Below are positions 1,640 to 16,122 of a stretch of DNA of 64,000 nt, in pieces. This stretch comes from Sebaldella termitidis ATCC 33386 (GTDB taxonomy: Bacteria > Fusobacteriota > Fusobacteriia > Fusobacteriales > Leptotrichiaceae). The stretch lies in contig NC_013517.1 in assembly GCF_000024405.1 (NCBI RefSeq), positions 3,999,989-4,063,988 of the forward strand, written 5' to 3'. Position 1 is the stretch's first letter, and each line of letters opens with the position of its first letter. The translations under genes were made by a program, and so were the position numbers. The notes under the pieces were generated by a model. It was not told the DNA's origin. It searched no databases and saw only the letters and a program-made list of their open reading frames with translations.

Positions 1640-1667
1640 AAAAAAAGCTGCCCTTATTAAGAGCAGC
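1640..1667 (-). terminator. intrinsic terminator after transketolase
   Basis: A hairpin with arms GCTGC and GCAGC, extended by CTT/AAG around an ATT loop (1647-1667), is followed in the minus direction by a run of seven T. It lies just past the transketolase stop and ends the sorC-gutM-tkt unit. Confidence 0.85.
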
Positions 1668-1675
1668 CTGTGTTT

Positions 1676-3655
1676 TTATCCTTTTATTTTATTAACGATT
1701 TTTTCTACTGTAAATCCATATTCTTCTATTACTTTTCCTGCCGGTGCTGATGCTCCGAATGTATCTATTCCTATTGCCAGTCCGTCCATTCCTACATATT
1801 TATGCCATCCGAATGTCGATCCCATCTCAAGTGATACTCTGTTTCTTACTCCTTTTGGAAGGATACTTTCCTTATACTCACAGCTCTGTCTTTCAAAAAG
1901 CTCCATACTCGGCATACTTACTACCCTTACTGATTCTCCTGCTTTTTCCAGTTCCTTTGCTGCTCCCACTGCCAGAGATACTTCTGATCCTGTTGCTATT
2001 ATTATTCTTCCAAAATCTTTGTTTGTCTCGTAAGATACATATGCTCCCTTTGCTACATCTTCCATTGACGAACCTTCTGTTACATCCAGATTCTGTCTGC
2101 TTAATACTAAAAGTGTCGGTGTCTTCTTACTTTCTGCAGCTACCTTCCATGCTCCCTGTGTTTCTCTGCTGTCTGCTGGTCTTATTACATTTATATTCGG
2201 AATTGCTCTTAAACCTGCAAGCTGTTCTATCGGTTCATGTGTCGGACCGTCTTCCCCTACTGCTATACTGTCATGAGTAAGTACATAAGTTACCGGTAAT
2301 CCCATTAATGCTGATAATCTTATTGCTGCCTTCACATAGTCACTGAATACAAAGAATGTTCCCCCGAATGTCTTCAGTCCTCCGTGTAATACCATTCCGT
2401 TCAGTATCGCTCCCATTGCAAATTCTCTTACTCCAAACTGAATATTTCTGTTTTCTCTGTGCTCTGCGTCAAACAGTCCTTCTCCTTTTATCATTGTCAT
2501 ATTTGAATGTGCTAAGTCTGCCGAGCCTCCTATGAAATTCGGTATCTGTCCTGCTATTGCATTTATCGCATCATTTGATGCATTTCTTGTTGCCTGTGAA
2601 TGTCCTGCTTCATATGCCGGGAATTCTATCTTTATATTATCAAATAATGTTCCTGCCGCTATTTCTTCTATCTCTTTTCCCAGCTCAGGATATTTTTCCT
2701 TATACTTTCCTACAAGGGCTTTCCATTCCTCTGACTTTGCTGTTCCTCTTTCTGCTACTGATTTCTTATAGTCCTCATATACCTCTGCCGGAACTTCAAA
2801 TGCTTCATAGTCCCATTTCAGATATTCTCTTAATCCTTTTGTTTCTTCTGCTCCCAAAGGTGCCCCGTGTGAACTGTTCTTTCCTGCTTTTGTCGGTGCT
2901 CCGTATCCTATTACTGTTTTTATCTCTATTAATGTCGGCTTTGTTACATCTTTCTTTGCTTCTTTTATTGCCGCATCTATTGCTCCAAGATCATTGCCGT
3001 CTTTTACCGTTAGTACCTGCCAGCCGTAAGCTTCATATCTCTTAGCCACATCTTCTGTAAATGTTTCTCTTGTTTCACCATCAAGACATATATCATTGGA
3101 ATCATAAAGTACTACCAGTTTCCCCAGCTTCTGTACTCCTGCAAATGAACTTGCCTCTCCGCTCACACCTTCCATAAGATCTCCGTCTCCGCAGATTACA
3201 TATGTAAAGTGATCTATTATATTCATATCTTCTTTATTATATTTTTTCGCAAGATGTGTTTCTGCCAGTGCCATTCCCACTGCTGTGGCAATTCCCTGTC
3301 CAAGGGGACCTGTTGTCGTGTCCACTCCTTTTGTATGTCCGAACTCAGGATGTCCTGGTGTCTTAGAACCCCACTGTCTGAAATTCTTTATGTCTTCCAT
3401 AAACACATCAAAACCGCTTAAATGTAATAATGAATATATTAACATCGATCCGTGTCCTGCTGACAGTACAAATCTGTCTCTGTTCAGCCATTCAGGTTCT
3501 TTTGGATTCACGTTAAGGTGTTCGCTCCAAAGTGTGTACGCCATAGGTGCCGCACCTAATACTATTCCGGGATGTCCTGACTTTGACTTCTCTATCGCAT
3601 CCACTCCCAGCATTCTTATTGCATCTACTGACAATTGTTTTACATTTTTTTCCAT
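1676..3655 (-). CDS. tkt: transketolase
   Basis: Transketolase, a TPP-dependent cytoplasmic enzyme moving two-carbon units between ketose and aldose phosphates in the pentose phosphate pathway. At 659 residues it is full length. Visible landmarks are the substrate histidine in SGHPG (His28), GPLGQG near 116-121, the TPP/Mg motif GDGDLMEG at 156-163, the catalytic glutamate in FGVREFAMG near 410, and [15 protein letters not shown] near 473. It is the last gene of a unit with a SorC regulator and GutM, 25 nt after gutM. That context suggests induction with the upstream sugar-alcohol genes, though it could also be the general housekeeping transketolase. A terminator follows closely. Confidence 0.96.
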
Positions 3656-3680: not shown

Positions 3681-4055
3681 TTAGTTTTCTTCTTTATTTT
3701 TCAAATTTCTTATCTGTTCTACGGCTGTTTTTATACTTTTTCCATATTTCTTATCTGTGTAAGCTTTATTATAAAGATCATCAATATTTTCTCCCAATAT
3801 TTCGGACAAATCCTTGAATCTGCTGAAAGTGCTGAATCCTCTCATAATTTTGCTGTCTATAACTGTCCCGCCTGCATCGGAACACAGTATGACGGCACAG
3901 CCTGAAAAAGCTCCCTTTGCCACGCCGAATCCTACATCTCCTTTTTGCCTTAATTCTATCAGCATCTGGGTATAATTTTTGGACTGCAGATATATAAAAT
4001 ATCTCTGAAGTGCCATGGCTATTACCACAAGTATTATTATATAAATATAATTCAT
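3681..4055 (-). CDS. gutM: glucitol-operon activator GutM/SrlM family protein
   Basis: A 124-residue protein with an N-terminal membrane segment (residues 3-17) and a cytoplasmic part containing KGDVGFGVAKGAF, the hallmark of the GutM/SrlM family. In enteric bacteria GutM activates the glucitol PTS operon together with a repressor; how it works is poorly known. It lies 3 nt after the SorC regulator and 25 nt before transketolase. Its presence links this distal unit to the glucitol-type PTS genes about 8 kb upstream, though the sugar need not be sorbitol. Confidence 0.85.
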   Translation of the reverse strand: MNYIYIIILVVIAMALQRYFIYLQSKNYTQMLIELRQKGDVGFGVAKGAFSGCAVILCSDAGGTVIDSKIMRGFSTFSRFKDLSEILGENIDDLYNKAYTDKKYGKSIKTAVEQIRNLKNKEEN

Positions 4056-4058
4056 AGT

Positions 4059-5024
4059 CTATTCACCTTTTTCTATATAGTTTTCTATCTCCTTAGCAAT
4101 ACTGTAGTTAGTTACCAGTACATCCAGAAATTTACCGTTCAATGCACCAATTACCGCATCTGTCTTTTCTACTCCTGCTGCGGCTCCGATTACTGTTCTT
4201 ATTTTCTTCAGATCATCAAGCTCTATTCCTATAACTCTTTCATTAAATTCAAAATTGTAATTTTCCCCGCTTTTATTGTAGAACTGCAGACATATATCCC
4301 CCACTACATTATTCTGCTTAAACTCTTCCAGCTCTGTTTTATTAAAATAGCCTGTTTTCATCATTGTAGACTCCTGACTCAGCGGTGTTCCTATTCCCAC
4401 CATGGCAATATCGCATTTTTTTCCGTATGAAATTATATCTGAAATATTTTTTTCTTTCAAAAATTCATTTTTTATCTCTTTTTTGGAAACAACTGCCGGT
4501 GCATGAAGAAGCTTAAATTCCCCTCCGTATTTTTTTACAAAATCAAGAACAATATCATTCGGATGTATTTCCTGCTGTATTTGTCCGGTTCCTCCTATCA
4601 GCGGAAGAAACGTAAGATTCAGATTCTGCCTTTTAGTTACATAATCCACTACGAGTTTTATTGTAGTTCCCATAGAAAAGCCTATTATATTATCTTTTTC
4701 AAGGACTCTGTCAAAATATTCCGCAGCAGCTTTTGCCACTTCCTTTTTTTGGATATATTCATCATTTTCATCAGGCACTATTATTACTTCCCTGAGTTCG
4801 TATCTTTTTTCCAGCTTTTCTGCAAGGTCAAAATAGTCATTGTTAAAAGGGTTTACAAGTTCCAGTTTTACTATCCCCTGTTCTTTTCCTCCTTTTAGAA
4901 GTCTTGCCACTGTTGGTCTTGATATCCCAAGGATTTCAGCTATCTCATTCTGTGTATAGCCTTCTTCATAATATAATTTGCATGTCTTGTATATCATTGC
5001 TAATTCGTCTGTTATTTTTTTCAC
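4059..5024 (-). CDS. SorC-family sugar-responsive transcriptional regulator
   Basis: A 321-residue SorC/DeoR-type regulator. Residues 23-42 form a winged-helix recognition region (YTQNEIAEILGISRPTVARL). The remainder is the sugar-phosphate sensing domain with the segments IGFSMGTTI, LPLIGGTGQI and VGIGTPL typical of SorC proteins. Translation is likely from GTG with GGAGG six bases upstream. A perfect TTGACA-N17-TATAAT promoter precedes it with a 14-bp palindrome at the start point, so autorepression is likely. Related palindromes flank the promoter of the PTS operon, making this the probable local regulator. Its effector is unknown, expected to be a phosphorylated sugar or polyol. Confidence 0.9.
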   Translation of the reverse strand: MKKITDELAMIYKTCKLYYEEGYTQNEIAEILGISRPTVARLLKGGKEQGIVKLELVNPFNNDYFDLAEKLEKRYELREVIIVPDENDEYIQKKEVAKAAAEYFDRVLEKDNIIGFSMGTTIKLVVDYVTKRQNLNLTFLPLIGGTGQIQQEIHPNDIVLDFVKKYGGEFKLLHAPAVVSKKEIKNEFLKEKNISDIISYGKKCDIAMVGIGTPLSQESTMMKTGYFNKTELEEFKQNNVVGDICLQFYNKSGENYNFEFNERVIGIELDDLKKIRTVIGAAAGVEKTDAVIGALNGKFLDVLVTNYSIAKEIENYIEKGE

Positions 5025-5093
5025 ACTCTACCTCCAATTAGCTACAAAGCTTGTATTTTTGACTTAGTATGCATTTATCTTTTGTTCTTATGC

Positions 5094-5107
5094 ATTACAT
5101 ATGTAAT
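5094..5107 (-). promoter_or_regulatory. candidate SorC operator at its own promoter
   Basis: ATTACATATGTAAT is a perfect 14-bp palindrome lying at the expected transcription start of the sorC promoter. Three sites before the PTS operon (16059-16072, 16149-16162, 16395-16408) share its core ATNTGTNN with ACA or GCA in front. Location and symmetry suggest a repressor site; the binding protein is inferred. Confidence 0.6.
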
Positions 5108-5108
5108 C

Positions 5109-5137
5109 ATTATATAGCTTATTTTTTCATTTGTCAA
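5109..5137 (-). promoter_or_regulatory. sorC-gutM-tkt promoter
   Basis: On the minus strand TTGACA (5132-5137) and TATAAT (5109-5114) are separated by 17 bp, a perfect sigma70-type consensus. It drives the SorC regulator, GutM and transketolase. Confidence 0.85.
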
Positions 5138-5295
5138 ATAATAAAACTACCAATCTTTAGCTATTGATTTTATATCTGTTACTTTTCCGGTGTGTTAGGG
5201 ATATATTATTTTTGTTGTACAGCCTGATATGCTTTTGACAGAAGACGGAACGGAAATCTTCATGTAATTTCCGTTTATCTTCTTTATTTACAGCC

Positions 5296-6285
5296 TTAAA
5301 TAATTACATCCAAAATTTCTTCTTCAGAAAATCCTGAGAAATATTCACTAACATTTACTGTCTTCAAATATTCCGCTATTTCACTTATCATATATTTTTT
5401 TCCTTTCAAGCCACTTTCCAAATCTTCTATTTCCCTGCTTGAAAAGAAATCTCCATATAGTTTTATATTTTCTATAAGTCCGTCTTTTAATTTTATATAG
5501 CTTTCTACCTTTCCGGCAGTATATTTTCTCTGTCTGTGAATGTCCGCTTCAGGTGATTCGCCATAATTCCATTCCCATTTGTCATATTTTTCTTTTTTCA
5601 GCTTCTCTATCTCTTTTTTGTCATTTTCAGTAAGAACATACTCCTCAAATTCTTCCATTCTGTTTTTCATATGTTCAAATAAGGCAACTTTAAAATCTGA
5701 AACTTCCTTTATCTTACTGTCTTCCCCTATATAATCCTTTATGTTGGCTACCCTGCTTTTTATTGATTTCAGACCCTTTGATTCGATTTTATCCTTTGAT
5801 ACCTTCAAACTGTTTACCAGCTCTTCCATTTCGCTGTTAAATAATAAAGTTCCGTGATGCAGAATTTTTTTCTTAAAAATATATTGGGCATTTCCAGAGA
5901 ATTTTTTACCATCTATTGCCAGATCATTTCTGCTGTTAAATTCCGCTTTTATTCCTAATTCACCCAGAAGATCAACTATAGGTCTTGTAAAAAAGCTGAA
6001 ATCAAAATCAGCAAGATCCTTTTTTTCCTGTATAAAAGAAAAATTTATATTTCCCAGATCGTGATAAACTGCTCCTCCTCCTGACATACGTCTTACTACA
6101 TGTATTCCCTTTTTTTCCACATAATCAAGATTAATTTCAGATATGGTATTCTGGTGCTTTCCTATTACTATAGTAGGTTCATTCTGCCATAAGAAAAAAT
6201 ACTCGCCGTCAAGATTTTTCAGCACATACTCTTCAAGTGCAAGATTATATCTGGGGTTATTATTTTCATTAATTATATATTTCAT
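5296..6285 (-). CDS. lplA: lipoate-protein ligase A
   Basis: Attaches lipoate through lipoyl-AMP to a lysine of lipoyl domains. The RRMSGGGAVYHD motif (residues 65-76) and the catalytic lysine in GKKFSGNAQ (Lys128) are clear, and a C-terminal accessory domain gives a typical length of 329 residues. I chose the ATG at 6285 (MKYIINENNN), which has GAGG six bases upstream, over an ATG 18 bases earlier with no such site. It lies just downstream of the E2 and E3 genes, both of which have a lipoyl domain, so it likely lipoylates that complex. A terminator and an extended -10 promoter separate the two, so it can be transcribed independently. Confidence 0.93.
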   Translation of the reverse strand: MKYIINENNNPRYNLALEEYVLKNLDGEYFFLWQNEPTIVIGKHQNTISEINLDYVEKKGIHVVRRMSGGGAVYHDLGNINFSFIQEKKDLADFDFSFFTRPIVDLLGELGIKAEFNSRNDLAIDGKKFSGNAQYIFKKKILHHGTLLFNSEMEELVNSLKVSKDKIESKGLKSIKSRVANIKDYIGEDSKIKEVSDFKVALFEHMKNRMEEFEEYVLTENDKKEIEKLKKEKYDKWEWNYGESPEADIHRQRKYTAGKVESYIKLKDGLIENIKLYGDFFSSREIEDLESGLKGKKYMISEIAEYLKTVNVSEYFSGFSEEEILDVII

Positions 6286-6447
6286 TCCGGACCTCTTTTC
6301 CATTATCTAAATTTATATATAAAACAAACAGGATATCCAGTCTGTTAACGATATTCTGCCGGACTGTCCTTCTTTATTTTATACATCGATTTACACAGAT
6401 ATTCAGAATAATTTTCTGTTTCCTAAAAATATACATAATACTAGAAA

Positions 6448-6458
6448 ATTATAGCATA
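6448..6458 (-). promoter_or_regulatory. candidate extended -10 promoter for lplA
   Basis: Reading minus, TATGCTATAAT contains a TGN-TATAAT extended -10 element about 160 bases before lplA. No good -35 is seen. It lies downstream of the E3 terminator, supporting a separate lplA transcript. Confidence 0.45.
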
Positions 6459-6572
6459 GAAACTATAAAACTATATTTAAAATAAAAAATTTTCTGCATA
6501 ATATTTTATTATATTCTGAATCTGTATTAGACAGATTTCTCCAAACCCTTTATTTCACAATACTAAATTCTA

Positions 6573-6628
6573 AAAAAAACAAGGAACTCATACAAAATTT
6601 ATTTTTATTTTGAAGTAGTCCCTTGTTT
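6573..6628 (-). terminator. terminator after the dehydrogenase-complex operon
   Basis: Arms AACAAGGGACT and AGTTCCTTGTT (one bulged base) enclose an AT-rich loop and are followed, in the minus direction, by eight T. It ends the E1-E2-E3 unit. Confidence 0.8.
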
Positions 6629-6653
6629 ATTATTTATATGAATGGGGAATTCA

Positions 6654-8342
6654 TTATTTTTTCTTCGGCAGATGAAGAGCCTTTCCAAGACAGTCAGCAC
6701 ATGCCTCCAGTATTGCTTCCGAGAATGTAGGGTGCGCATAGATCAGCTCTGAAGCTTCCTCTATTGTTATCTCCATTTCCATCAAGATTACTCCCGCACT
6801 TATCATCTCTGTTGCCTTACTCCCTATTACATGCACTCCCAGTATCTCTCCGTAATTATCATCACAGATTACCTTTACAAATCCTTCTTCCTCACTTGAA
6901 GCTATCGCTCTCCCGTTGGCTCCAAAGTTAAATCTTCCTGTTCTTATCTTTCCGTATTTCTTTAACGCTTCTTCTTCTGTCAGTCCCACTGATGCTATCT
7001 CTGGAAGAGTATACACACATTTCGGCGTATTATCCAGTCTTACCTCTTCTCTTCCTCCCAGTGCATTTCCTGCTGCCGTTTCTCCCATCTTAAAGGCTGA
7101 ATGGGCTAACATCGATAATCCATTTATATCTCCTGCTGCATAAACTCCCGCTATACTTGTTTCCATATATTCATTTACTATAAGCCTTCCTCTGTCCTGC
7201 TTTATTTCCAATCCATCCACACAGCTTAGGTCTGCCTCTCTTCCTATTGAGAAAAGTACATAGTCGCTGCTTAAGCTCTCTCCGCTCTTTAATACTGTCT
7301 CTATCTCTTTTCCCTTATCCTTAAATCCTGTTACCTGTTTATCTGTCAGAAGCTTTATCCCTTTTTTCTTAAATATCTTTTCCAGCTCCTGTGATATCTC
7401 CTTATCATTGAAAGGTAAAAGGTTTGACATTGCTTCCACTATTGTTACTTCTGTTCCGTATCCTCTGAATATCTCCGCAAACTCACAGCCTATTACTCCT
7501 CCTCCGACTATAACCAGTCTTTCAGGTACTTTATTAAGGTCTAGTATCGTTGTACTTGTCAGTATCTTATCACTGTCTATTCCGGGTATATTCAGATATC
7601 TTGTTTTTGATCCTCCTGCAAGGATTATCTTCTTACCTTTCAGTACCTGTCCGTCTTCCAGTGTTACTTTCTTTCCTTCTCCAAGCTTTCCTGCTGTACT
7701 GTATACATCTACGCCGTAGCTTCTCAGCAAGCCTCCCACTCCCTGTGAAAGCTTCTTTGTTACCTTATTCTTAAATTCCACTGCCTTTGTCAGATCTGAT
7801 ATATTCTTTGTTACCTTTATATCCAGTCCTCTTGACTCTGCTTTTTCTGCTTCTTCCAATATTTCTATATTCTTTATATATGTTTTGGTAGGAATACAGC
7901 CTCTGTTCAGACATGTTCCTCCAAGCTCTCTTTTTTCTACTAAAGCTGTTTTGGCTCCAAGCTGGGATGCCTTGTTGGCTGATATATATCCTGCCGGTCC
8001 TCCGCCTATTACTATTACATCATATTCTTTTTCATCTGATGTCTTTGTTTCGGTCTTTACTTCCTCTTTCTTTTCTGCTTCTTTTACTTCGCTTACACTT
8101 TCTCCTTTTTCTCCAATATAGCCTATTACTGTAAATACCGGCAGTACTTCATTCTCAAATCTTACTTTCTTTAGAAGATAACCCGAGCTCTCGGCTTCTA
8201 CCTCCATATTTACTTTATCTGTCAGTATTTCGACTATTGGTTCCCCTTCTTTTATGGCTTCTCCTTCTTCCTTCAGCCACTTTATTATAGTTCCTTCTTC
8301 CATTGACATTCCTGCTTTAGGCATTATTATTTCTACTGACAT
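6654..8342 (-). CDS. acoL: dihydrolipoyl dehydrogenase (E3) with an N-terminal lipoyl domain
   Basis: FAD enzyme that reoxidises the dihydrolipoyl group of the E2 partner with NAD. At 562 residues it exceeds the usual 470 because residues 1-80 are a lipoyl domain with the lipoylated Lys43 in TDKVN, followed by a charged linker. Next come the FAD fold (VIGGGPAGY, 112-120), the redox disulfide Cys144/Cys149 in GGTCLNRGCIP, an NAD fold (VIVGGGVIGCEFAE) and the C-terminal His-Glu pair in AHPTFSEA. The lipoyl domain is almost the same as that of the adjacent E2, indicating domain duplication. E3 with a lipoyl domain is known from acetoin and some pyruvate dehydrogenase complexes. The acoL symbol is by resemblance only. 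Confidence 0.93.
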   Translation of the reverse strand: MSVEIIMPKAGMSMEEGTIIKWLKEEGEAIKEGEPIVEILTDKVNMEVEAESSGYLLKKVRFENEVLPVFTVIGYIGEKGESVSEVKEAEKKEEVKTETKTSDEKEYDVIVIGGGPAGYISANKASQLGAKTALVEKRELGGTCLNRGCIPTKTYIKNIEILEEAEKAESRGLDIKVTKNISDLTKAVEFKNKVTKKLSQGVGGLLRSYGVDVYSTAGKLGEGKKVTLEDGQVLKGKKIILAGGSKTRYLNIPGIDSDKILTSTTILDLNKVPERLVIVGGGVIGCEFAEIFRGYGTEVTIVEAMSNLLPFNDKEISQELEKIFKKKGIKLLTDKQVTGFKDKGKEIETVLKSGESLSSDYVLFSIGREADLSCVDGLEIKQDRGRLIVNEYMETSIAGVYAAGDINGLSMLAHSAFKMGETAAGNALGGREEVRLDNTPKCVYTLPEIASVGLTEEEALKKYGKIRTGRFNFGANGRAIASSEEEGFVKVICDDNYGEILGVHVIGSKATEMISAGVILMEMEITIEEASELIYAHPTFSEAILEACADCLGKALHLPKKK

Positions 8343-8361
8343 ATTATTCCTTTCTATCCTA

Positions 8362-9690
8362 TTATATTAACAGACTATAAGGGTCTTCTATTAATTTCTT
8401 TACATACTGCATAAACTCTGCTCCAAGTGCTCCGTCTATTACTCTGTGATCAAATGTTGCACTAAGGTAAATTACTTTCTTTACTGATATTTTTCCTGCT
8501 TTTGCCACAGGCTTTTCTTCTATTGTTCCTACTCCTATTATACAGCTGTTTGGCTGGTTTATTATCGGATTAAAGTAATGAACTCCATACATTCCAAGAT
8601 TGCTTAATGTTATTGTACTTCCGCTCTGTTCTGCTGCTCCCAGTTTTCCTTCTCTTGCTTTTTTGATCAGATCTTTTCCTTCTGTAAGTATATTTCTTAT
8701 TCCTTTATCTTCTGTATTCTTTACTACAGGCACCATTAATACCCCGTTCCCTGATACTGCAAAGCCTACATTTATCTCTTTATGACAAAGGATTCCTTTA
8801 TCTGTTAATGATACATTTATATCCGGGTATTTTCTTACTCCTCTGCTTACTGCCAGAATAAGAAGATCATTTATTGTCAGCTTTTCTCCTGTTTCATCCA
8901 TCAGCGGTGCGGCTATTTTATCTTTCAGTTTTAGTAATTTATTTACTCCTACTTCTATATTAAGTGTAAATGTCGGTGCTGAGAACTGACTTTCTGTCAT
9001 TCTGTCCCCTATTACTTTTCTTATTCCTGAATATGGTTTCAGCTCTGCTTCTTTTGATATTATTTCCGGAGCTGCATTAAGAACAAGATCTCTTTTGAAT
9101 ATCTTTCCTTTTGCTCCTGTTCCGCTTATACCGTCCAGGTCTATTCCTTCCTGTCCTGCTATTTTTCTTGCAAGAGGAGTAGCCTTTACTGTACTTCCTG
9201 CTGCGAAGCTTTCCACATCTGCAAGCTGGACTCTTCCTTTCGGTCCTGAGCCTGGTATATCCCCGAGGTTCAGATTATTATCTCTTGCTTTCTTTCTTGC
9301 TGCTGGTGTTGCCCTGTTTAGTTTATCTGACTGCATAAGAGATTTATTAAAGAAGACAGAGTTTTCTTCTGTTTCCTTTTTGTCAGGTTTCTTTTCATCC
9401 TTGATTACTTCCGCTGTTTTGGCTTTTTCTTCTCTTTCACTTACGGTTTCACCTTTCTCACCTATATATCCTATTACTGTAAATACCGGCAGCACTTCAT
9501 CTTCAAATCTTACTTTTTTTATCAGAAAACCTGAGCTTTCAGCCTCTACTTCCATATTAACCTTATCTGTTAATATTTCTACTATAGGCTCCCCTTCTTT
9601 TATTTCATCTCCTTCACTTTTCAGCCATTTTACTATTGTTCCTTCTTCCATTGACATTCCTGCCTTTGGCATTATTATCTCTACTGACAT
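8362..9690 (-). CDS. acoC: dihydrolipoyl acyltransferase (E2) of an acetoin-dehydrogenase-type complex
   Basis: Core of a 2-oxo-acid/acyloin dehydrogenase complex: its lipoyl arm carries the acyl group from E1 to coenzyme A. Order of domains in 442 residues: lipoyl domain (1-80, Lys43 in TDKVN), charged linker, two consecutive peripheral-subunit-binding motifs (around 128-160, TPAARKKARDNNLNL, and around 172-205, TPLARKIAGQEGIDL), then the catalytic domain ending with FDHRVIDG (His415, Asp419). Two subunit-binding domains in one E2 are unusual. It sits 39 nt after E1 beta and 19 nt before E3. Substrate specificity lies in E1 and is not certain; acoC is by resemblance. Confidence 0.92.
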   Translation of the reverse strand: MSVEIIMPKAGMSMEEGTIVKWLKSEGDEIKEGEPIVEILTDKVNMEVEAESSGFLIKKVRFEDEVLPVFTVIGYIGEKGETVSEREEKAKTAEVIKDEKKPDKKETEENSVFFNKSLMQSDKLNRATPAARKKARDNNLNLGDIPGSGPKGRVQLADVESFAAGSTVKATPLARKIAGQEGIDLDGISGTGAKGKIFKRDLVLNAAPEIISKEAELKPYSGIRKVIGDRMTESQFSAPTFTLNIEVGVNKLLKLKDKIAAPLMDETGEKLTINDLLILAVSRGVRKYPDINVSLTDKGILCHKEINVGFAVSGNGVLMVPVVKNTEDKGIRNILTEGKDLIKKAREGKLGAAEQSGSTITLSNLGMYGVHYFNPIINQPNSCIIGVGTIEEKPVAKAGKISVKKVIYLSATFDHRVIDGALGAEFMQYVKKLIEDPYSLLI

Positions 9691-9729
9691 GTTTCCTCCT
9701 TCTTAGAAAGTTCTAAAAGCGGTTTTCTT

Positions 9730-10713
9730 TTATTTTCTGTTCATTGCCTTATATATTGCTTCTGTTATATCTTCCTTACTTGGTACTACATAGGCTTCCA
9801 GCTTAGGGTTATATGGTATAGGTGTATTTTTTCCCGAAAGTCTTATTATCTCTGAATCAAGATAATCAAATGCTTCGCTTTCCACTACTTCTGATACTAT
9901 TTCCCCTGCATAGCTTCCTCTTTTTACCGCTTCATTAACTACTATAAGTCTTCCTGTTTTGATTACAGAATTCTTTATTGTTTCTATATCAAGAGGTACA
10001 AGTGTTCTCGGATCAATTACTTCTACATCTATTCCGTCTTTTGCTGCTTCTTCTGCTGCTTCAAGAACTCTCGGAAGCATTCTTCCATATGTAACTACAG
10101 TAACATCTTTACCGGTTCTTTTTATATCAGCAACACCTAAAGGGATAGTATATTCTTCCTCAGGTACTTCGCCTTTTGTTCTGTACAGAAGCTTCTGTTC
10201 CACGAAGATAACAGGATTATTATCTCTGATAGAACTTTTTAGAAGACCTTTTACATCATAAGGTGTAGAAGGTGCAACAACTTTCAGTCCCGGAATATGA
10301 CAGAACCATGCTTCCAGACTTTGTGAATGCTGGGCGGCAGCTCCTGTACCTGATCCTGCAGGACATCTTAATACAAAGGGAACCTGTGCTTTACCGCCGA
10401 ACATATATCTCATTTTAGCTGCCTGGTTAACAATGGCATCCATAGCAATAGTAGAAAAGTCCATAAACATAAGTTCTGCTATTGGTCTCATACCTGTAAC
10501 TGCCGATCCAGCAGCAGCACCGGCAATAACTGCTTCAGATATCGGAGTATCTCTTACTCTCTCTTCACCGAATTCATCTATCATTCCTACAGATACACCA
10601 AAGGCTCCGCCGTATATACCTACATCTTCCCCTAACAGATATACATTTTCATCCCTTCTCATTTCTTCCGACATAGCTTCTCTGATTGCTTCTGCATATG
10701 TTATTTCTCTCAT
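9730..10713 (-). CDS. acoB: TPP-dependent dehydrogenase E1 beta subunit
   Basis: Beta subunit of a heterotetrameric E1 (327 residues, the usual length). It has the transketolase-type pyrimidine-binding domain ([20 protein letters not shown] with the conserved glutamate near 59; ELMFMDF) and the C-terminal transketolase domain ([27 protein letters not shown]). The pattern is closest to acetoin/pyruvate dehydrogenase E1 beta. It is separated from E1 alpha by about 250 bp containing a tandem 106-bp repeat, which is unusual for subunits that need equal expression. A CCTCC-complement ribosome binding site directly precedes the start. Confidence 0.93.
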
Positions 10714-10724
10714 TTTTTTCCTCC

Positions 10725-10936
10725 TAGTGTTTTGTCTAACTTAATTTCAAAAAACATAGACCTCTTAATGTCAAAACACTTGTGCCCCAAGCTGACTCTC
10801 ATATTTTAAAATACAGATAAGGCAGGGTGCTAGTGTTTTGTCTAACTTAATTTCAAAAAACATAGACCTCTCAATGTCAAAACACTTGTGCCCCAACCCG
10901 ACACTCATATTTCAAAATGCGGATAAAACAGGGTGC
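10725..10936 (-). repeat. two tandem 106-bp repeats between the E1 alpha and E1 beta genes
   Basis: Copies at 10725-10830 and 10831-10936 match over nearly their whole length; I see only about ten substitutions. Each contains the inverted arms AGTGTTTTG and CAAAACACT about 35 bp apart, so each can form a stem-loop in RNA. A diverged relative lies at 14565-14640 and similar arms occur at 26843-26889. No ORF spans the repeats. They may affect processing or stability of the mRNA between the two E1 genes, but that is inference. Confidence 0.85.
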
Positions 10937-10961
10937 TTGTGTTCTTGCTTACTTTTTATGC

Positions 10962-11924
10962 TTAATCAGCATATACATCAGTCAATGCTGTTTCCAATTC
11001 AGGATCAGGTGAATTATTAGCAAATTCCACTGCCTTTTCTATATCTGCCTTAGCCTGTTCCTCTATTGCAGTTAATTCCGCCTCTTTAAATATTTTTTCG
11101 CTTACAAGATACTTTTTCATTCTTTCTATAGGGTCCTTTGATTTCCAGTCCTCTATTTCTTCCTTTGTTCTGTATACATTGGCATCACTCTTTGAGTGTC
11201 CGAGCCATCTGTAAGTTTTGCTTTCCACAAGTACAGGTCCGTTTCCTTCCCTTACATACTTAAATATTTCAAGCATTTTATCATAAAGTCCCACAGCATC
11301 ATTTCCGTCAACTATATGTCCGGGAATACCGTAGCTTGATGCTCTGTCTGCGATATTTGTAATATTCATGTGTCTTTCCATTGACATAGACATACCGTAA
11401 AGATTGTTTTCGCAATAAAAGATAACAGGAAGCTTCCATATCGATGCCAGATTAAGAGCCTCATGAAAACTGCCTTCATTAGCAGCACCATCCCCAAAAA
11501 AGCAAAGTACAATTTTTCCTGTTTTTTTCATTTGCTGTGTTAATGCAGCACCTACCGAGAGACCATGTCCTCCACCCACTACACCGTTAGCTCCGAGATT
11601 TCCAGAATCAATATCGGCAATGTGCATAGAACCGCCTTTACCTTTACAGTAACCCGTAGCCTTACCAAGAAGCTCGGCCATCATTTTATTAAGGTCTACT
11701 CCTTTACCTATTACCTGACTGTGTCCTCTGTGTGTAGAAGTAATTAAGTCGCCGTCTTCAAGTGCCATGCAGGGAGCTACTCCCGAGGCTTCCTCACCCA
11801 TAGAAAGGTGTGTAGTTCCGTGAACCATTCCTCTTGAAAAGAACCATGATACTTTTTGTTCAAAGGCTCTTGCCTCATTCATTCTTTTGTACATTTCTCG
11901 ATATGTTTCTTTTTTTACTTTCAT
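10962..11924 (-). CDS. acoA: TPP-dependent dehydrogenase E1 alpha subunit
   Basis: Alpha subunit of the E1 component, which binds TPP and cleaves the substrate next to its carbonyl. It has 320 residues with GGSMHIAD near 97-104, the TPP/Mg motif GDGAANEGSFHEA (GDG at 144-146) and the partner asparagines in CENNLYGMS (173-174). The family covers acetoin, pyruvate and branched-chain dehydrogenases; the short length and the accompanying E3 with a lipoyl domain favour the acetoin type. Acetoin is a methyl acyloin, so another methyl acyloin such as a 1-deoxy-ketose phosphate is a reasonable alternative substrate here given the PTS and DRL-like neighbours. Confidence 0.92.
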   Translation of the reverse strand: MKVKKETYREMYKRMNEARAFEQKVSWFFSRGMVHGTTHLSMGEEASGVAPCMALEDGDLITSTHRGHSQVIGKGVDLNKMMAELLGKATGYCKGKGGSMHIADIDSGNLGANGVVGGGHGLSVGAALTQQMKKTGKIVLCFFGDGAANEGSFHEALNLASIWKLPVIFYCENNLYGMSMSMERHMNITNIADRASSYGIPGHIVDGNDAVGLYDKMLEIFKYVREGNGPVLVESKTYRWLGHSKSDANVYRTKEEIEDWKSKDPIERMKKYLVSEKIFKEAELTAIEEQAKADIEKAVEFANNSPDPELETALTDVYAD

Positions 11925-12062
11925 TTCTCTCTCTCCTTTGCTTTTTCATTCTTGAATTCCCACTTTTAACCGATACTTATTTTTACACAGACTTTCCCCT
12001 GATAAAACCCGGATTAAAAGAGAATATTTAAGAAGGAAAATCCTAAAAAGTTATTTTTATTG

Positions 12063-12335
12063 TTATAAATAACGGATCACTTCTTCACATACTGTTTTAA
12101 TCCCGTTTTTTGTTTCTATTTCATTTCCTGATACCACGGGTACCTTTGTTTCTATATGGTTTTTACCTAATATTACTATTACGTCGGGAATCTTTGTTTC
12201 CTTATTTATTTCGTATACATTTCTCCCTCTTACTTCCACATCTATATTTCTTCCTCTGCAGTATTCCGATATTGTCTGCATTGTATAATTCATTTTTTTG
12301 ACAGATACCCCTGCTGCCACTAATACTTTTTTCAT
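12063..12335 (-). CDS. GatB-like PTS IIB domain protein lacking the phosphoacceptor cysteine
   Basis: A 90-residue protein that aligns by eye to galactitol-type PTS IIB proteins: an opening strand KKVLVAAG, a helix with ISEYCRGRNIDVEV, and the ending PVVSGNEIETKNGIKTV. In GatB the residue after VA is the phosphorylated cysteine of the ACGG motif; here it is alanine (VAAGVS). The only cysteines (CRGR and VCEE) are in positions not used for phosphotransfer. It leads the E1-E2-E3 genes and has a strong GGGAGG ribosome binding site. It might be a sensor, a structural partner of the PTS or a relic. Family assignment is by fold pattern, not by a search. Confidence 0.65.
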   Translation of the reverse strand: MKKVLVAAGVSVKKMNYTMQTISEYCRGRNIDVEVRGRNVYEINKETKIPDVIVILGKNHIETKVPVVSGNEIETKNGIKTVCEEVIRYL

Positions 12336-12427
12336 ACTATTTCCTCCCGAGCTCAGTATATATTTATGATATTTTTCTTTCCAATAATAACCCGTTTAAT
12401 ATAATAATTTTTTATTTTCTTTGAAAC

Positions 12428-12478
12428 AAAAAGAGTATCCGGAAATTAAATTTTACTTTTTATTCCAATACTCTTTTT
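12428..12478 (-). terminator. terminator after the PTS genes
   Basis: Arms AAAAAGAGTAT and ATACTCTTTTT, extended by TGGAA/TTCCG with a bulge, form a stem followed in the minus direction by CTTTTTG. It divides the PTS unit from the dehydrogenase-complex unit, possibly allowing partial read-through. Confidence 0.75.
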
Positions 12479-12483
12479 ATTTA

Positions 12484-12515
12484 CACAGACTCATAAATTT
12501 CCATATGAGTCTGTG
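12484..12515 (-). other. perfect inverted repeat just upstream of the terminator
   Basis: CACAGACTCAT and ATGAGTCTGTG are perfect 11-bp arms with a 10-bp loop, between srlB and the terminator. There is no T tract, so it is not itself a terminator. It may protect the 3' end of the PTS transcript or bind a regulator. Confidence 0.6.
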
Positions 12516-12571
12516 CTTTCTGTAAAATTTAATTTTCTACAATTTGTCTTAATAATTTTTCTATATAAATA

Positions 12572-12928
12572 CTATTTAAAACTTATATAATCTCCTATTT
12601 CAATCACCGGATGATTTTCTCCTGCAAGTTCGATCTGTCCCGGAACTTCTGCTTCAGACTTCCCTGTGAACTTAAATGTACAATGTCCCAGTTCTTTCAG
12701 AGTAAGCATAGCTTCTGTTCCTACAGCCGTTACTTTATATCCGTGTTTCCCGAGAATTATTTCATCTCCGACTTTTATATCTCTTTTTATTTCACCTTCT
12801 TCGTGCAAAACAGCTATTTCAGCCAGTTCCTCAGGTGCTATATCATCAAATATTATCAAACATCCGCATTCCTCGTATAATTCCATTGCGCTCATTCCGA
12901 TTTTGTTAACCTTAACGTTATAATTCAT
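12572..12928 (-). CDS. srlB: glucitol-type PTS enzyme IIA
   Basis: IIA component of a glucitol/sorbitol-family PTS (118 residues). It receives phosphate from HPr on a histidine, here His42 in AEIAVLHEEG, and passes it to the IIB domain of SrlE. The later motif GKHGYKVTAVG is typical of the family. It follows srlE by 17 nt. The family is known for sorbitol, but members also transport other polyols, so the substrate is left open. Confidence 0.9.
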   Translation of the reverse strand: MNYNVKVNKIGMSAMELYEECGCLIIFDDIAPEELAEIAVLHEEGEIKRDIKVGDEIILGKHGYKVTAVGTEAMLTLKELGHCTFKFTGKSEAEVPGQIELAGENHPVIEIGDYISFK

Positions 12929-12945
12929 GTACCTTTCCTTTCCGA

Positions 12946-13956
12946 CTAAAATAATCCTATACTTGCTATATAAGCCAATACTACAGACAGCGGACCGGTT
13001 ACCAGTCTTGAGAACAGTATTGCAGGTACCCCTACTTCTATTGTTTCAGCTTCTGCGTCTCCCAAGCTTAGTCCTACCGGTATAAAGTCACATCCTACCT
13101 GTGGATCAATAGCGAACAGTGCCGGTAATGCCAGTGATGCCGGTATAGTTCCAAGACCTATCTGAGTTCCTACCAACACTCCTACTACTTGAGCTATAAC
13201 AGCTCCCGGACCTAATAATGGTGAAAATACAGGTATTGCACATATTATGGAAATTATAAGCAGTCCTATCATATTTCCTGCAAGCGGAGCAAGTTTGTTA
13301 GCTATGAAATCTCCTATTCCCGTACCCAGAATTATCCCTATTAGCATACTTGTAAAAGCCATAAACGGTAATATATTTTTTATTACAGTTTCTATTACTT
13401 CTCTACCTGATTGATAGAAAACAGCAATTACTCCGCCTGTAGCTTTTCCAAGTCTAGTCAGAAAACCTTCTTTTTCATACTTCGTATCTGCCAGCTTTTC
13501 TCTTGCTTCTTTTTTCAGTGCTTCACCTTTCTGCTTATTTGTCATTCCTTCCATAGCATCAGTTTCCGCAGCTGCAGTTACTTCTCCTTCTTCTGCAAGA
13601 GTTACGTTTTTATCTTTTACATCTGATACGTAAATATCTGAAGTTATATACTGCGCCAATGGACCAGCCTGTCCCACAGGCATTACATTTATAGTAAATA
13701 TTCTTTTCTTTGGATACACGCCGCATCTTGCTGTTCCGCCGCAGTCTACTATTACCACCATTATTTCATCTTCAGGTACTCCCGTAACAAATCCGTTAAC
13801 TATCTCGCAGCCAGTCAGTTCAGCCAGTTTATATGCTAAAGGATGAATTGTTTTCCCGGTTATACTTACTATCTTATTCTTTTTTTCAGTAGGAGTGATA
13901 ATTAACGGACCACCCCATCCATTCGGACCTTTTTCTATTTTTACCGCTTTATACAT
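12946..13956 (-). CDS. srlE: glucitol-type PTS enzyme IIB plus IIC1
   Basis: A membrane protein fusing the cytoplasmic IIB domain with part of the transport channel. The phosphoacceptor region [15 protein letters not shown] contains Cys72 and Cys78; after about residue 165 there are hydrophobic transmembrane segments (for example [20 protein letters not shown]). I chose the ATG at 13956 (MYKAVK) because GAGGAGG lies six bases upstream; an earlier GTG overlaps that site. The sequence overlaps the end of srlA region closely, so the two are translationally coupled. Together with SrlA and SrlB it brings in and phosphorylates a sugar alcohol. Confidence 0.92.
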
Positions 13957-13967
13957 ACTCATCCTCC

Positions 13968-14519
13968 TCACCCAGCTTTAGCTACTTTTTTAGATTTTCT
14001 ACCCATTAGTATAAGAGTTATTCTTTCTGTCAATACTCCTCTTATGAAAATAACCAGTATCCCCACAAGGAAATATCTTGTTGCAAGACCTGCTATTGGA
14101 AGCCCTAACTGTGTTATCCCGTTTGCGATTCCCATATAGACAAACAGCTCTCCTGCATTAGCATGCGGGAATAAACCTGTCACCGGGTGAACAAATGAAA
14201 CTGCCGAATCATAAAATGCCGGTTTGTACTTTTCTTCAACGAATTTCCCAAAAGTGTAACACATTGGGTTAGTTAAAAATAATACTGCTAATATTGGTAG
14301 TAATGTATATCTTGTAATTATATTCTTAGATGCCCATCTAGCTGCTGTATTTACCCTTTCTTCCCCGATTAACTTTATAACAGCCGTTATTCCTGTCATC
14401 AATACCACAAGTAATGGAATTATTCCTGAAACCCAGCCGGCAAATACTTCTCCGCCTTGTTGGAACAAACCTATAAAGTGCGTTGCGATTTTTGATATAA
14501 AATCGATAATACCAAACAT
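13968..14519 (-). CDS. srlA: glucitol-type PTS enzyme IIC2
   Basis: Membrane subunit of the glucitol-type PTS (183 residues) with several hydrophobic segments, including [20 protein letters not shown] and [18 protein letters not shown]. The charged stretch [15 protein letters not shown] between segments is typical of SrlA. Its stop lies 11 nt before the chosen srlE start. It follows the DRL-like oxidoreductase gene after a 218-bp gap that holds a diverged copy of the 106-bp repeat. Confidence 0.92.
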
Positions 14520-14564
14520 CCTAAACCTCCTATATTTTTAATTACTAGTTTCTGCATGATTAAA

Positions 14565-14640
14565 ATTTCAAATATCAATGCCAAAACACCTGTACCCTGT
14601 TTTATACCCCAGTTCAAAATTATAGCAGACAAGGTACTAA
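14565..14640 (-). repeat. diverged copy of the 106-bp repeat before srlA
   Basis: The segment TCAATGCCAAAACACCTGTA and its right-hand flank align with TCAATGTCAAAACACTTGTG and flank in the tandem repeats at 10725-10936, with more substitutions and no clear left arm. It lies between the oxidoreductase gene and srlA. Confidence 0.55.
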
Positions 14641-14737
14641 AATTCAGATCCTCTTTTATGCACTAAGATTTTTACTGTATCTTTACAGATACATTTTCCG
14701 ATAAAATTACAAGAATTTATTTATTCCTTTCTAAAAA

Positions 14738-16030
14738 TTAACCAAATAATTTGTCCTGTACTCTTCTTAACTGCAGTATGAATGAACTTTCATCAAGCTC
14801 TACCATATCATAAGTTATTACTTCACCTTTTTTAACATCTTTTACCAGCTTTGTTTTTTTAGTTATCAATCCTACAGGAAGTGCGTTCATTTCTTTTGCT
14901 GTTTCATATACTTCCACCGAACCGTATACTGTATATCCTCCGATTCCGTCTAAGTTTTCTCCTGCTTTAAGATCTTTTTTAGCTATTGTAATTACTTCTG
15001 AAACAAGTCCTCCCATTGGTGCTATTGTAGCTTCATGGTCTATTACTGCTTTTGCAGCTGATAATGGTGTTTCAAGACTGCACAGGTGATATGGTCTGTA
15101 TAAGATGTAGTTCGGCCCGTCTCCCATGTCCAGATATTTCATCTCTTTTCTTACTTCCTCCAGTTTGCTTGATACTACTACGAATACTCCTGGTGCTATT
15201 CCGTCTACGAAATCTACTACACCGTATTTACTAAGTATTCCTCCTTCTTCTTTCAGACTGAATACTTTTGGTACATCATTTACTTCACCTTTTATTCCGT
15301 GTGCTCCTCTTACATCAGGTATATATCCTGTAGAATTTGACATTACTGCTAATTCAACCATTGTTTTACTTCCTTCTTTAAATGAAGCAAGCATATGTGC
15401 ACTGACTCCTCTTCTTTCAGCTTCTTCGGCTACTGTATCAGGATTACAGTCTTTATCAATTTTATTATTTTTTCCTTTTCCTATTACTCTTACATCGAAT
15501 CCTGCTGCTTTTGCAAAATCATATAATTCTTTTGTTGCTGCAGGTTCGTCTCCTGCTGCTCCTGTATAAACTACTCCTGCATTATCAGCCAGTTTTTTTA
15601 ATAATGGTCCGATAACTACATCAGTTTCAGCATTCAACATTACTAAGTGTTTTTTACCCATGATAGTATCAAGTGCTATCTTAGCCCCTACTTCTGTTAC
15701 TCCTGTTGCTTCGATCAGAACTTCTATTTTTTTAGAATCTGTTACTACTTTCGAATCATCTGTTACAACAAAGTTTCCTTGTGCTATCCATTCATCAGCT
15801 TCACATGAGCATTTTGTATACTTTATTTTATCTTCGCTCACTCCTGCGTGCAGTAAAGCTTTTTTAGCCAGCTCTGTATTTATATCCACTACTATTGCAG
15901 GATTCATTCCTTCCATAAGATACATTTGGCTTACCATTCCCTGACCCATTTGTCCTGCACCTATTATTCCTGTAAGTATTGGTGTTCCGGCTTTCTCAAG
16001 CTTTTCCAGCTTATAGTTCAATCCTAACAT
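14738..16030 (-). CDS. DXR-like (DRL family) SAF-domain NAD(P) oxidoreductase
   Basis: A 430-residue oxidoreductase with a homoserine-dehydrogenase-like NAD(P) fold (IIGAGQMGQGM at about 22-32), a central catalytic domain (TGAAGDEPAATKELYDF; GKGKNNKID) and a C-terminal SAF domain (about 353-430, with VKKGEVITYDMVELDESS). This architecture is that of the DRL family, whose Brucella member converts 1-deoxy-D-xylulose 5-phosphate to 2-C-methyl-D-erythritol 4-phosphate; many paralogues have unknown roles. The start at 16030 has AGGAGG six bases upstream; an earlier in-frame ATG has none. It is the first gene of a PTS operon that lacks a sorbitol-6-phosphate dehydrogenase, so it probably oxidises the phosphorylated polyol. 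Confidence 0.75.
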   Translation of the reverse strand: MLGLNYKLEKLEKAGTPILTGIIGAGQMGQGMVSQMYLMEGMNPAIVVDINTELAKKALLHAGVSEDKIKYTKCSCEADEWIAQGNFVVTDDSKVVTDSKKIEVLIEATGVTEVGAKIALDTIMGKKHLVMLNAETDVVIGPLLKKLADNAGVVYTGAAGDEPAATKELYDFAKAAGFDVRVIGKGKNNKIDKDCNPDTVAEEAERRGVSAHMLASFKEGSKTMVELAVMSNSTGYIPDVRGAHGIKGEVNDVPKVFSLKEEGGILSKYGVVDFVDGIAPGVFVVVSSKLEEVRKEMKYLDMGDGPNYILYRPYHLCSLETPLSAAKAVIDHEATIAPMGGLVSEVITIAKKDLKAGENLDGIGGYTVYGSVEVYETAKEMNALPVGLITKKTKLVKDVKKGEVITYDMVELDESSFILQLRRVQDKLFG

Positions 16031-16058
16031 AAACTTCCTCCTAAAATATATTTTTATT

Positions 16059-16072
16059 TTTACATTTGTTTT
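16059..16072 (-). promoter_or_regulatory. candidate operator 1, downstream of the PTS-operon promoter
   Basis: TTTACATTTGTTTT resembles the palindrome at the sorC promoter. It lies about 15-30 bases after the expected start of transcription, a place where repressors act. Confidence 0.5.
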
Positions 16073-16094
16073 CACGTTTTACTTTTGATAATTA

Positions 16095-16122
16095 ATTATA
16101 CTTCATTTTTTACCATTGTCAA
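16095..16122 (-). promoter_or_regulatory. promoter of the DRL-PTS operon
   Basis: Minus-strand TTGACA (16117-16122) and TATAAT (16095-16100) are 16 bp apart. The 5' leader to the start codon is about 57 nt. Candidate operators lie on both sides. Confidence 0.85.

Follow-up and report, generated by a model that had tools for sequence, protein, structure and literature searches.

What would a bacterium do with an oxidoreductase akin to an enzyme of isoprenoid synthesis when its gene heads an operon for polyol uptake that continues into a lipoate-dependent dehydrogenase complex? The question arises in a 64,000-nucleotide stretch of the genome (4.49 Mb in 3 contigs) of Sebaldella termitidis ATCC 33386, a bacterium of a termite-gut kind; the stretch spans positions 3,999,989–4,063,988 of contig C1 and is referred to here as the window. 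All genes of interest lie on its minus strand, in the order DRL oxidoreductase, glucitol-type (Gut) phosphotransferase system (PTS) subunits IIC, IIB and IIA, a 90-aa IIB-like protein, the E1 alpha, E1 beta, E2 and E3 components of an acyloin-type dehydrogenase complex, and a lipoate ligase. The original prediction read this operon as a pathway in which the PTS forms 2-C-methyl-D-erythritol 4-phosphate (MEP) or a related deoxy-polyol phosphate, the DRL-like enzyme runs in reverse to 1-deoxy-D-xylulose 5-phosphate (DXP), and the complex cleaves DXP. Comparative evidence has raised this pathway from a guess to a specific proposal, and it is the best-supported reading; we consider it probable that the operon is catabolic for a methyl-branched polyol, most likely 2-C-methyl-D-erythritol, which would be degraded via MEP and DXP to acetyl-CoA and glyceraldehyde 3-phosphate.

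Identity of the oxidoreductase

The first gene of the operon is as follows:

14738..16030, minus strand: DXR-II / DRL oxidoreductase (PF21135 DRL_cat, 217.1 bits, cut-off 27)

The longest reading frame of this gene covers 14738–16075, and an ATG at about 16030, behind GGAGG, is the better start. The protein matches the Brucella DRL structures (PDB 3upy and 3upl), the sole solved relatives found, with 320 bits (E 1.6e-94), and it keeps all ten of the residues G121, E174, F178, K191, K193, T229, H250, R320, Y322 and V351 (Brucella numbering), which are residues reported to matter in DRL. As described in PMC3847144, positions 121, 229, 250, 320 and 351 separate DXR-II from DLO1 and DLO2, while residues 191, 193, 174, 178 and 322 are fosmidomycin and dimer positions; the same paper names Sebaldella termitidis in a DXR-II clade of 53 sequences, 11 of them proven by complementation. 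Its domain, the diagnostic residues checked and this published list all assign the window oxidoreductase to DXR-II, and the DRL-like assignment that had been made from the sequence is supported by the listing of Sebaldella termitidis in the published clade.

A DRL tree of 106 rows (a quick search with SH-aLRT support only and some long branches) places the Brucella and window enzymes apart from the divergent rows L100, L102 and L161–L163, the tree having no named DLO reference. Thr229 is kept in 99 of the 106 aligned rows. The window DRL, of which an 89% identical version occurs in Sebaldella sp., groups with those of Negativicutes, Propionispora and Clostridium intestinale; the Brucella enzyme is nested in a 14-row alphaproteobacterial clade (SH-aLRT 100) in which 11 of the 13 other members are E1-adjacent, the exceptions being L157 and L159, as sampled from plasmid records picked by eye, with the chromosomes of that class outside the sample. 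Seven E1-adjacent DRLs (L019, L017, L018, L156, L020, L154 and L155) are 71–75% identical to the Brucella enzyme, and the L157 enzyme, which has no E1 beside it, is 74% identical; judged by this relatedness, the clade would tie E1-adjacent DRLs to a CHARACTERISED enzyme.

Recurrence of the gene neighbourhood

For comparison, 105 DRL loci were inspected, with neighbours counted within 9 kb; a first scan from the window had given 4 related loci. Clostridia contributed 38 of 40 match rows (G314 left out) together with C. intestinale (L004), and Negativicutes contributed 40 of 49 rows (left out were G713, G725 and, twice each, G570, G553 and G732) together with Propionispora (L005); the others were 21 of 110 plasmid records, picked by eye for variety, the window, L003, L101 (whose contig ends after the IIB-like gene) and L102. 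Several diagnostic residues are missing from L100, L102 and L161–L163, and at least 5 of the 105 are probably not DXR-II. Class II aldolase, triose-phosphate isomerase (TPI), isoleucyl-tRNA synthetase, FAD oxidoreductase, short-chain dehydrogenase/reductase (SDR) and galactitol IIC genes in unannotated loci were assigned by reading the sequence rather than by family search.

At least two Gut PTS subunits accompany DRL in 59 of the 105 loci, a SorC-type gene in 60, both E1 alpha and E1 beta in 16, and transketolase in 9 (the window's own transketolase lies beyond 9 kb). The 16 E1 loci comprise the window, L003 from Sebaldella sp., L063 and L065 from Clostridia, L014 from Priestia and eleven from Alphaproteobacteria; adjacency of DRL and E1 is thereby found in four lineages, namely Fusobacteriota, Clostridia, Bacilli and Alphaproteobacteria, and in annotated alphaproteobacterial records E1 alpha directly follows DRL. 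Uptake genes differ among these loci, with a Gut PTS in eight, a kinase with an ATP-binding cassette (ABC) or major facilitator superfamily (MFS) transporter in five, and neither in three (L063 has a IIA gene at its contig end); the phosphorylating module swaps while the DRL–E1 pair stays. Because it recurs in other genomes, the window arrangement is not due to chance; the neighbourhood that the original prediction wished to see checked is conserved, and the DRL–E1 adjacency extends to other phyla.

A reverse search with the window E1 alpha gave 62 plasmid records at 1e-70 or better, of which 60 were listed and 12 are Clostridioides difficile elements. Among the next 34 plasmid E1 alphas, at 51–59% identity, DRL lies within 200 bp in 32 and at 8.3 kb in one (Priestia); for the one left, from Rhizobium SSA_523, no DRL row appears among the 60 matches listed. 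As separate observations, the E1 alpha of the 12 C. difficile records is about 70% identical to that of the window, and one such plasmid (L187, NZ_CP149721.1) carries SorC–E1–E2–E3 with a GH43 protein, a cellulase-family hydrolase and a galactitol-type PTS.

The same survey bears on a different substrate handled by the same logic, in which DRL would oxidise and rearrange, or only oxidise, another branched or deoxy polyol phosphate, and the complex would cleave the resulting methyl ketose phosphate. Several substrates are suggested by nine sampled genomes with two or three DRL genes (G545, G526, G555, G003, G517, G414, G450, G363 and G217), in the first five of which every copy stands beside Gut PTS genes. 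Within this alternative, hydroxymethyl-branched polyols such as apiitol and hamamelitol would lead to xylulose 5-phosphate or a ketohexose phosphate and would match those loci that carry transketolase, or aldolase-like and TPI-like genes, near DRL, and transketolase occurs in the window locus too; however, such polyols yield no methyl acyloin, which leaves the adjacent E1/E2/E3 complex unexplained, and E1-adjacent DRLs are among the nearest relatives that were found for the characterised Brucella enzyme. For the window operon, we rate another substrate as unlikely, though worth keeping in mind. Since genomes that lack the complex can likewise have DRL with a Gut PTS, the DRL family as a whole is probably not tied to a single substrate. 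Most simply, DRLs would act on more than one branched polyol phosphate, the E1 module being the mark of the methyl-branched one. The proposed chain from MEP through DXP to acetyl-CoA and glyceraldehyde 3-phosphate would fit these comparative findings.

Two further arrangements were seen around DRL genes. In many Clostridia (L078–L099), a DRL of 40–55% identity stands beside FAD oxidoreductase-like and isoleucyl-tRNA synthetase-like genes, with no PTS. On Ligilactobacillus salivarius plasmids (L016 and L165), DRL, Gut PTS, GutM and SorC genes are followed by annotated fructose-6-phosphate aldolase and transketolase genes, near inositol genes.

The dehydrogenase complex and its E1 subfamily

The components of the complex are encoded as follows:

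10962..11924, minus strand: E1 alpha of an acyloin-type dehydrogenase complex (PF00676, 281 bits; own clade and signature)
9730..10713, minus strand: E1 beta (Transket_pyr, Transketolase_C; NF006667, 405 bits, cut-off 321)
8362..9690, minus strand: E2 acyltransferase with lipoyl and E3-binding domains (PF00198, PF02817, PF00364)
6654..8342, minus strand: E3 dihydrolipoyl dehydrogenase with an N-terminal lipoyl domain (PF00364; TIGR01350, 509 bits)

The best-matching named models of both E1 subunits are those of pyruvate dehydrogenase (PDH); E1 alpha stays under the cut-off of the PDH equivalog TIGR03182 (356.9 bits against 393.85), and E1 beta under that of the equivalog NF008854 (387.3 against 454). 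Matches of the E1 subunits to models of DXP synthase (DXS) are weak and far under the cut-off.

In a 69-row tree of E1 alpha, four acetoin-context E1s (L214–L217), which have acetoin reductase, the NAD kinase-like AcoX, butanediol dehydrogenase or sigma-54 regulators alongside, fall in a 25-row clade (support 93/83), and the window E1 alpha falls in a separate 30-row clade (93/96), support being moderate. Members of the latter clade are the E1s linked to SorC and those linked to DRL in Sebaldella and Clostridia, along with a few further close E1s from DRL-positive genomes, the six close E1s from DRL-negative genomes and a single distant row (L201). DRL-linked E1s from Alphaproteobacteria make up a clade of their own (100/100), and the Priestia E1 pairs with the distant row L198.

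Residues were contrasted between 31 DRL-adjacent or SorC-linked E1s and 27 others, plus a wider table, with L012, L173, L174, L183 and L188–L193 standing outside the contrast. The resulting signature, in window numbering, includes H35, T37, S41, N109 and S244-K245-S246 in E1 alpha (position 245 is Lys in 29 and Arg in 2) and Y34, A37, S121 and T123 in E1 beta; at alpha 44, one further contrast column, the window carries the residue of the non-linked E1s, and the L065 E1 departs from the signature at several positions. At the same sites, alpha reads P, F, Y, M and F-E-G and beta reads F/W, V, A and F/A/L in the acetoin-context E1s, and alpha of human PDH reads R, F, C, F and S-M-S. The signature sites flank alpha H39 and H243 and beta H129, which are presumed to be the catalytic histidines, as in PDH structures. 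The replacement of Phe, Glu and aliphatic residues by Lys and Ser/Thr would be in keeping with a phosphate on the substrate, so that the signature outlines a candidate phosphate pocket. Since it is largely common to the six close E1s of DRL-negative genomes, as it is to L198, the signature marks a subfamily rather than gene linkage. On the strength of tree and residues, the window complex appears to belong to its own E1 subfamily, outside the acetoin-context clade.

The sigma-54 regulator AcoR, AcoX and acetoin or butanediol enzymes are absent from the operon proteins scanned, which include SorC and GutM instead. A plain acetoin dehydrogenase was rejected, since the E1 tree and the residues differ. 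The predicted acetoin-dehydrogenase-type complex therefore stands in so far as E1 alpha, E1 beta, E2 and E3 are found together, while its grouping with acetoin-context E1s does not hold.

A near-copy of the E1–E3 block exists elsewhere in the same genome (L012:5308-12124, equal to C1:33307-40123), matching window 6657–11939 at 99.8% and 98.0% DNA identity, a likeness that reflects recent duplication or gene conversion. By sequence reading, its surroundings contain galactitol-type PTS genes (two IIC), a class II aldolase and an SDR; neither DRL nor lipoate ligase is found there.

The second copy, in a galactitol-PTS locus without DRL, would suit a division of the operon into two unrelated functions: together with transketolase, PTS and DRL would channel a polyol into the pentose phosphate pathway, and the complex would be a pyruvate or acetoin dehydrogenase of the ordinary kind. 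The PDH-named best models of both E1 subunits, the E1 beta score over the NF006667 cut-off and the many DRL/PTS loci without a complex speak for such a division; against it stand the DRL–E1 adjacency in four lineages, the co-occurrence across genomes given below, the E1 alpha score under the PDH equivalog cut-off with a position outside the acetoin-context clade, and the presence of pyruvate:ferredoxin oxidoreductase (PFOR) in the genome. We regard two unrelated functions as improbable.

Co-occurrence across whole genomes

Because the complex rarely adjoins DRL in Firmicutes, presence was compared over whole genomes, with a close E1 alpha defined by at least 60% identity to that of the window, a cut set at a gap seen in the data. 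Among 300 Negativicutes genomes, 40 are DRL-positive and 8 have a close E1 alpha; DRL occurs in all 8 of these and in 32 of the 292 others (Fisher 5e-8). Among 391 Clostridia genomes, 36 are DRL-positive and 15 have a close E1 alpha; DRL occurs in 9 of the 15 and in 27 of the 376 others (Fisher 6e-7). The P values for both classes are optimistic, since the genomes are related, the cut followed the gap, and scoring was confined to the best 4–7 candidates per genome. A distant E1 alone occurs in 37 Negativicutes genomes, none of them DRL-positive.

Sixteen close E1 operons lie away from DRL in DRL-positive genomes (L167–L182), and in 14 of them a SorC-type gene stands just upstream, on the same strand in 9 and divergent in 5. 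No SorC-type gene was found upstream in the 6 close E1 loci of DRL-negative Clostridia (L188 is cut upstream of E1), in the 20 distant E1 loci (L206 is cut likewise) or in the 4 acetoin-context loci. In the Negativicutes, the E1–E2–E3 operons with a divergent SorC gene (L178–L182) run on into genes for LipA and for IIA and IIB of galactitol type; the same complex may thus be supplied there by a PTS of a second type, and free 1-deoxyxylulose could be guessed at as its substrate.

Several observations weigh against the proposed pathway, in addition to the relatedness of the genomes just mentioned. The window DRL shares 39% identity with the Brucella enzyme, and E1 beta passes the PDH-named NF006667 cut-off. 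Close E1s are absent from 32 of the 40 DRL-positive Negativicutes genomes, and DRL from 6 of the 15 Clostridia with a close E1; in Clostridia, a distant E1 alone also leans towards DRL (5 of 24 genomes against 31 of 367, P 0.06). No E1 alpha match better than 1e-8 was obtained in 8 of 30 DRL-positive genomes searched, which were chosen rather than drawn; C. intestinale, with a DRL 73% identical to that of the window, is among the 8. E1 alpha is adjacent in none of the 41 Negativicutes loci and in 2 of the 39 Clostridia loci, and it is common for DRL and a Gut PTS to occur where the complex is missing. Finally, DXP would not need the transketolase found near DRL in nine loci, nor the aldolase-like and TPI-like genes near others.

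Metabolic background of the host

The window genome contains DXR-I (474 bits), as do 3 of 3 other genomes tested, and PFOR (1868 bits). LipA gave no match in it, in a search whose control finds LipA in 12 of 14 genomes. With DXR-I and PFOR at hand, DXR-II and a pyruvate dehydrogenase are not needed for routine metabolism; with no LipA match in the genome, lipoate is probably scavenged, for which the lipoate ligase LplA fits. DRL as the sole DXR of the genome is ruled out by DXR-I. The complex as a pyruvate dehydrogenase that the genome needs was likewise set aside, as PFOR is present and E1 alpha misses the equivalog cut-off, although E1 beta passes its subfamily cut-off.

A MEP-pathway role of DXR-II is hard to see in two other bacteria. 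According to PMC3847144, DXR-II of Finegoldia magna is active, and that account reports no MEP or mevalonate enzymes besides DXR-II in its genome; DXR-II of Chloroflexus aurantiacus is active as well, in an organism said there to use the mevalonate pathway only.

These data also bear on salvage, by which imported methylerythritol would enter isoprenoid synthesis as MEP and DRL would supply DXP for thiamine and pyridoxal phosphate. Salvage would account for the genomes that have DRL and PTS without an E1 complex, but it leaves unexplained the E1/E2/E3 and lipoate ligase genes of the window and the E1 genes beside DRL in 15 other loci, and all 4 genomes tested have a DXR-I of their own; we consider it very improbable.

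The proposed route

In the catabolic route that we favour, import through the PTS would yield MEP, which DXR-II would oxidise and rearrange to DXP, that is, a compound of the type CH3-CO-CHOH-R. The window DRL probably runs in reverse, because its locus is an operon of a polyol PTS and E1/E2/E3 in a genome that has DXR-I. Thiamine would then attack the ketone of DXP, and a retro-acyloin cleavage would give hydroxyethyl-thiamine and glyceraldehyde 3-phosphate; transfer to lipoate would lead to acetyl-CoA, the E1/E2/E3 step giving a second NADH. LplA would load scavenged lipoate onto E2 and E3, SorC would sense a phosphate of the pathway with GutM assisting, and PFOR would handle pyruvate. The substrate, the reaction direction, DXP as the substrate of E1 and the ligand of the regulator are inferred; the genes, their families, the diagnostic residues, the conservation and the co-occurrence are observed.

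Chemical precedent is offered by Escherichia coli, in which single-change mutants of PDH E1 replace DXS and raise DXP about 20-fold (PMC3424233), with the reserve, made in the same paper, that the direct product might be a DXP precursor. Because such mutants rescue cells without DXS, the E1 family is probably able to make the C–C bond of DXP and, the reaction being reversible, to break it.

PTS genes, regulators and control sites

The PTS and PTS-like genes of the operon are as follows:

13968..14519, minus strand: PTS glucitol-type IIC (NF049923, 260 bits, cut-off 150)
12946..13971, minus strand: PTS glucitol-type IIB(C) (NF049924, 491 bits, cut-off 400; TIGR00825, 420.5 bits, under its cut-off of 458.7)
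12572..12928, minus strand: PTS glucitol-type IIA (TIGR00849, 85 bits, under its cut-off of 190; NF007696, 89 bits, under its cut-off of 165)
12063..12335, minus strand: PTS galactitol IIB-like protein of 90 aa without the active-site Cys (NF007643, E 6e-5, 23 bits, under its cut-off of 95)

IIC exceeds the cut-offs of both its models, IIB that of one of two, and IIA neither. The IIB-like protein, which the first reading of the sequence did not mention, resembles GatB-type proteins (hhalign 97.7%), and Ala or Thr replaces the active-site Cys in 3 of 3 copies; from this replacement, it should not accept phosphate in the usual way, and it is perhaps a regulatory subunit. Its gene adjoins the E1 genes in the window and in L003 and lies near them in the second locus, L012.

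The other genes and sites are as follows:

16095..16122, minus strand: perfect sigma-70-type promoter before the DRL gene, TTGACA + 16 nt + TATAAT (consensus match only)
5296..6303, minus strand: lipoate-protein ligase LplA (PF21948, 234 bits)
5109..5137, minus strand: perfect sigma-70-type promoter before SorC, TTGACA + 17 nt + TATAAT (consensus match)
4059..5024, minus strand: SorC-family regulator, sugar-binding domain (PF04198, 240 bits)
3681..4055, minus strand: GutM (PF06923, 74 bits)
1676..3655, minus strand: transketolase, whose part in the proposed route is unclear (TIGR00232, 946 bits)
1645..1669, minus strand: terminator-like hairpin behind transketolase (pattern match only)

Perfect TTGACA/TATAAT pairs with a spacing of 15–18 occur at two sites only in the 64 kb, 16122–16095 and 5137–5109, and both sit just ahead of the two gene groups. 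The second group, SorC, GutM and transketolase, has its own promoter-like site in front and the terminator-like hairpin behind. The window holds both the complex and a transketolase. Profile matches show the genes named by the original prediction to be real and in the stated order; SorC, GutM and transketolase were rightly reported, although they lie below position 5025, behind their own promoter-like site, and thus outside the extent of 5025–16122 that had been given. The claim that no sorbitol-6-phosphate dehydrogenase is present was also upheld, as neither this enzyme nor another SDR is found among the operon proteins put through profile scans. An operator common to both perfect promoters was considered and rejected, as no convincing shared motif emerged, and a riboswitch or other RNA was rejected as positions 1–22000 gave no Rfam match at gathering score.

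Significance

DXR-II is scattered in its distribution, for which its describers had no explanation. PMC3847144 asks how DXR-II arose in strains already having DXR-I, and a 2026 review describes no defining pattern of DXR-II distribution apart from certain pathogens (PMC13001223). In a literature search on methylerythritol catabolism, none of the titles and abstract openings listed dealt with this route or linked DXR-II to polyol uptake; with capped lists and limited coverage of subscription journals, this is weak evidence of absence. What is new is the repeated occurrence of DXR-II next to an E1/E2 complex in Alphaproteobacteria, Priestia and Clostridia, where PTS, ABC plus kinase and MFS plus kinase can stand in for one another. 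Genome context thereby offers a pattern for DXR-II, namely polyol uptake alongside it in many lineages and an acyloin-type complex in several, and similar gene sets in distant bacteria suggest a purpose for a puzzling family.

A wider proposal, to which we would give even chances, is that 2-C-methyl-D-erythritol is consumed via MEP and DXP by bacteria from three phyla or more, with a dedicated and so far unrecognised DXP-cleaving subfamily of lipoate-dependent dehydrogenases, and that DXR-II is at root catabolic, its biosynthetic use in Brucella-like bacteria having been recruited later from such an operon. Methylerythritol is made by plants, and related methyltetrols arise in the air from isoprene. 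If true, bacterial consumption of methylerythritol would bear on plant–microbe and carbon-cycle chemistry, would introduce another type of E1 dehydrogenase alongside those for pyruvate and acetoin, and would mean that the first committed step of isoprenoid synthesis is run backwards as catabolism.

Comparison with known systems

The Brucella abortus DRL (3upl/3upy; PMC3847144) has the same domain, length and diagnostic active-site residues as the window enzyme; it is known as a biosynthetic enzyme working from DXP to MEP, whereas the window DRL belongs to an operon of a polyol PTS and E1/E2/E3 in a DXR-I genome. With the glucitol/sorbitol PTS operon (srlAEB, gutM), the window operon has IIC, IIB, IIA and GutM in common; it differs in having no sorbitol-6-phosphate dehydrogenase, a SorC regulator and a IIA that scores under the model cut-offs.

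The acetoin dehydrogenase complex (AcoABCL) shares the layout of E1 alpha, E1 beta, E2 and E3, and, as proposed here for the window complex, it splits a methyl acyloin to give acetyl-CoA; the window E1, in contrast, lies outside the clade of the four acetoin-context E1s and carries other residues beside the presumed catalytic histidines. The pyruvate dehydrogenase complex likewise shares the component layout, and the two Ser after the alpha His are shared with human PDH; the window E1 has Lys where the human enzyme has Met between these two Ser, its E1 alpha scores below the equivalog cut-off, and the window genome also has PFOR. Lastly, DXS is a thiamine enzyme that forms the same C–C bond in the opposite direction (PMC3424233), whereas the reaction proposed for the window complex would involve no decarboxylation.

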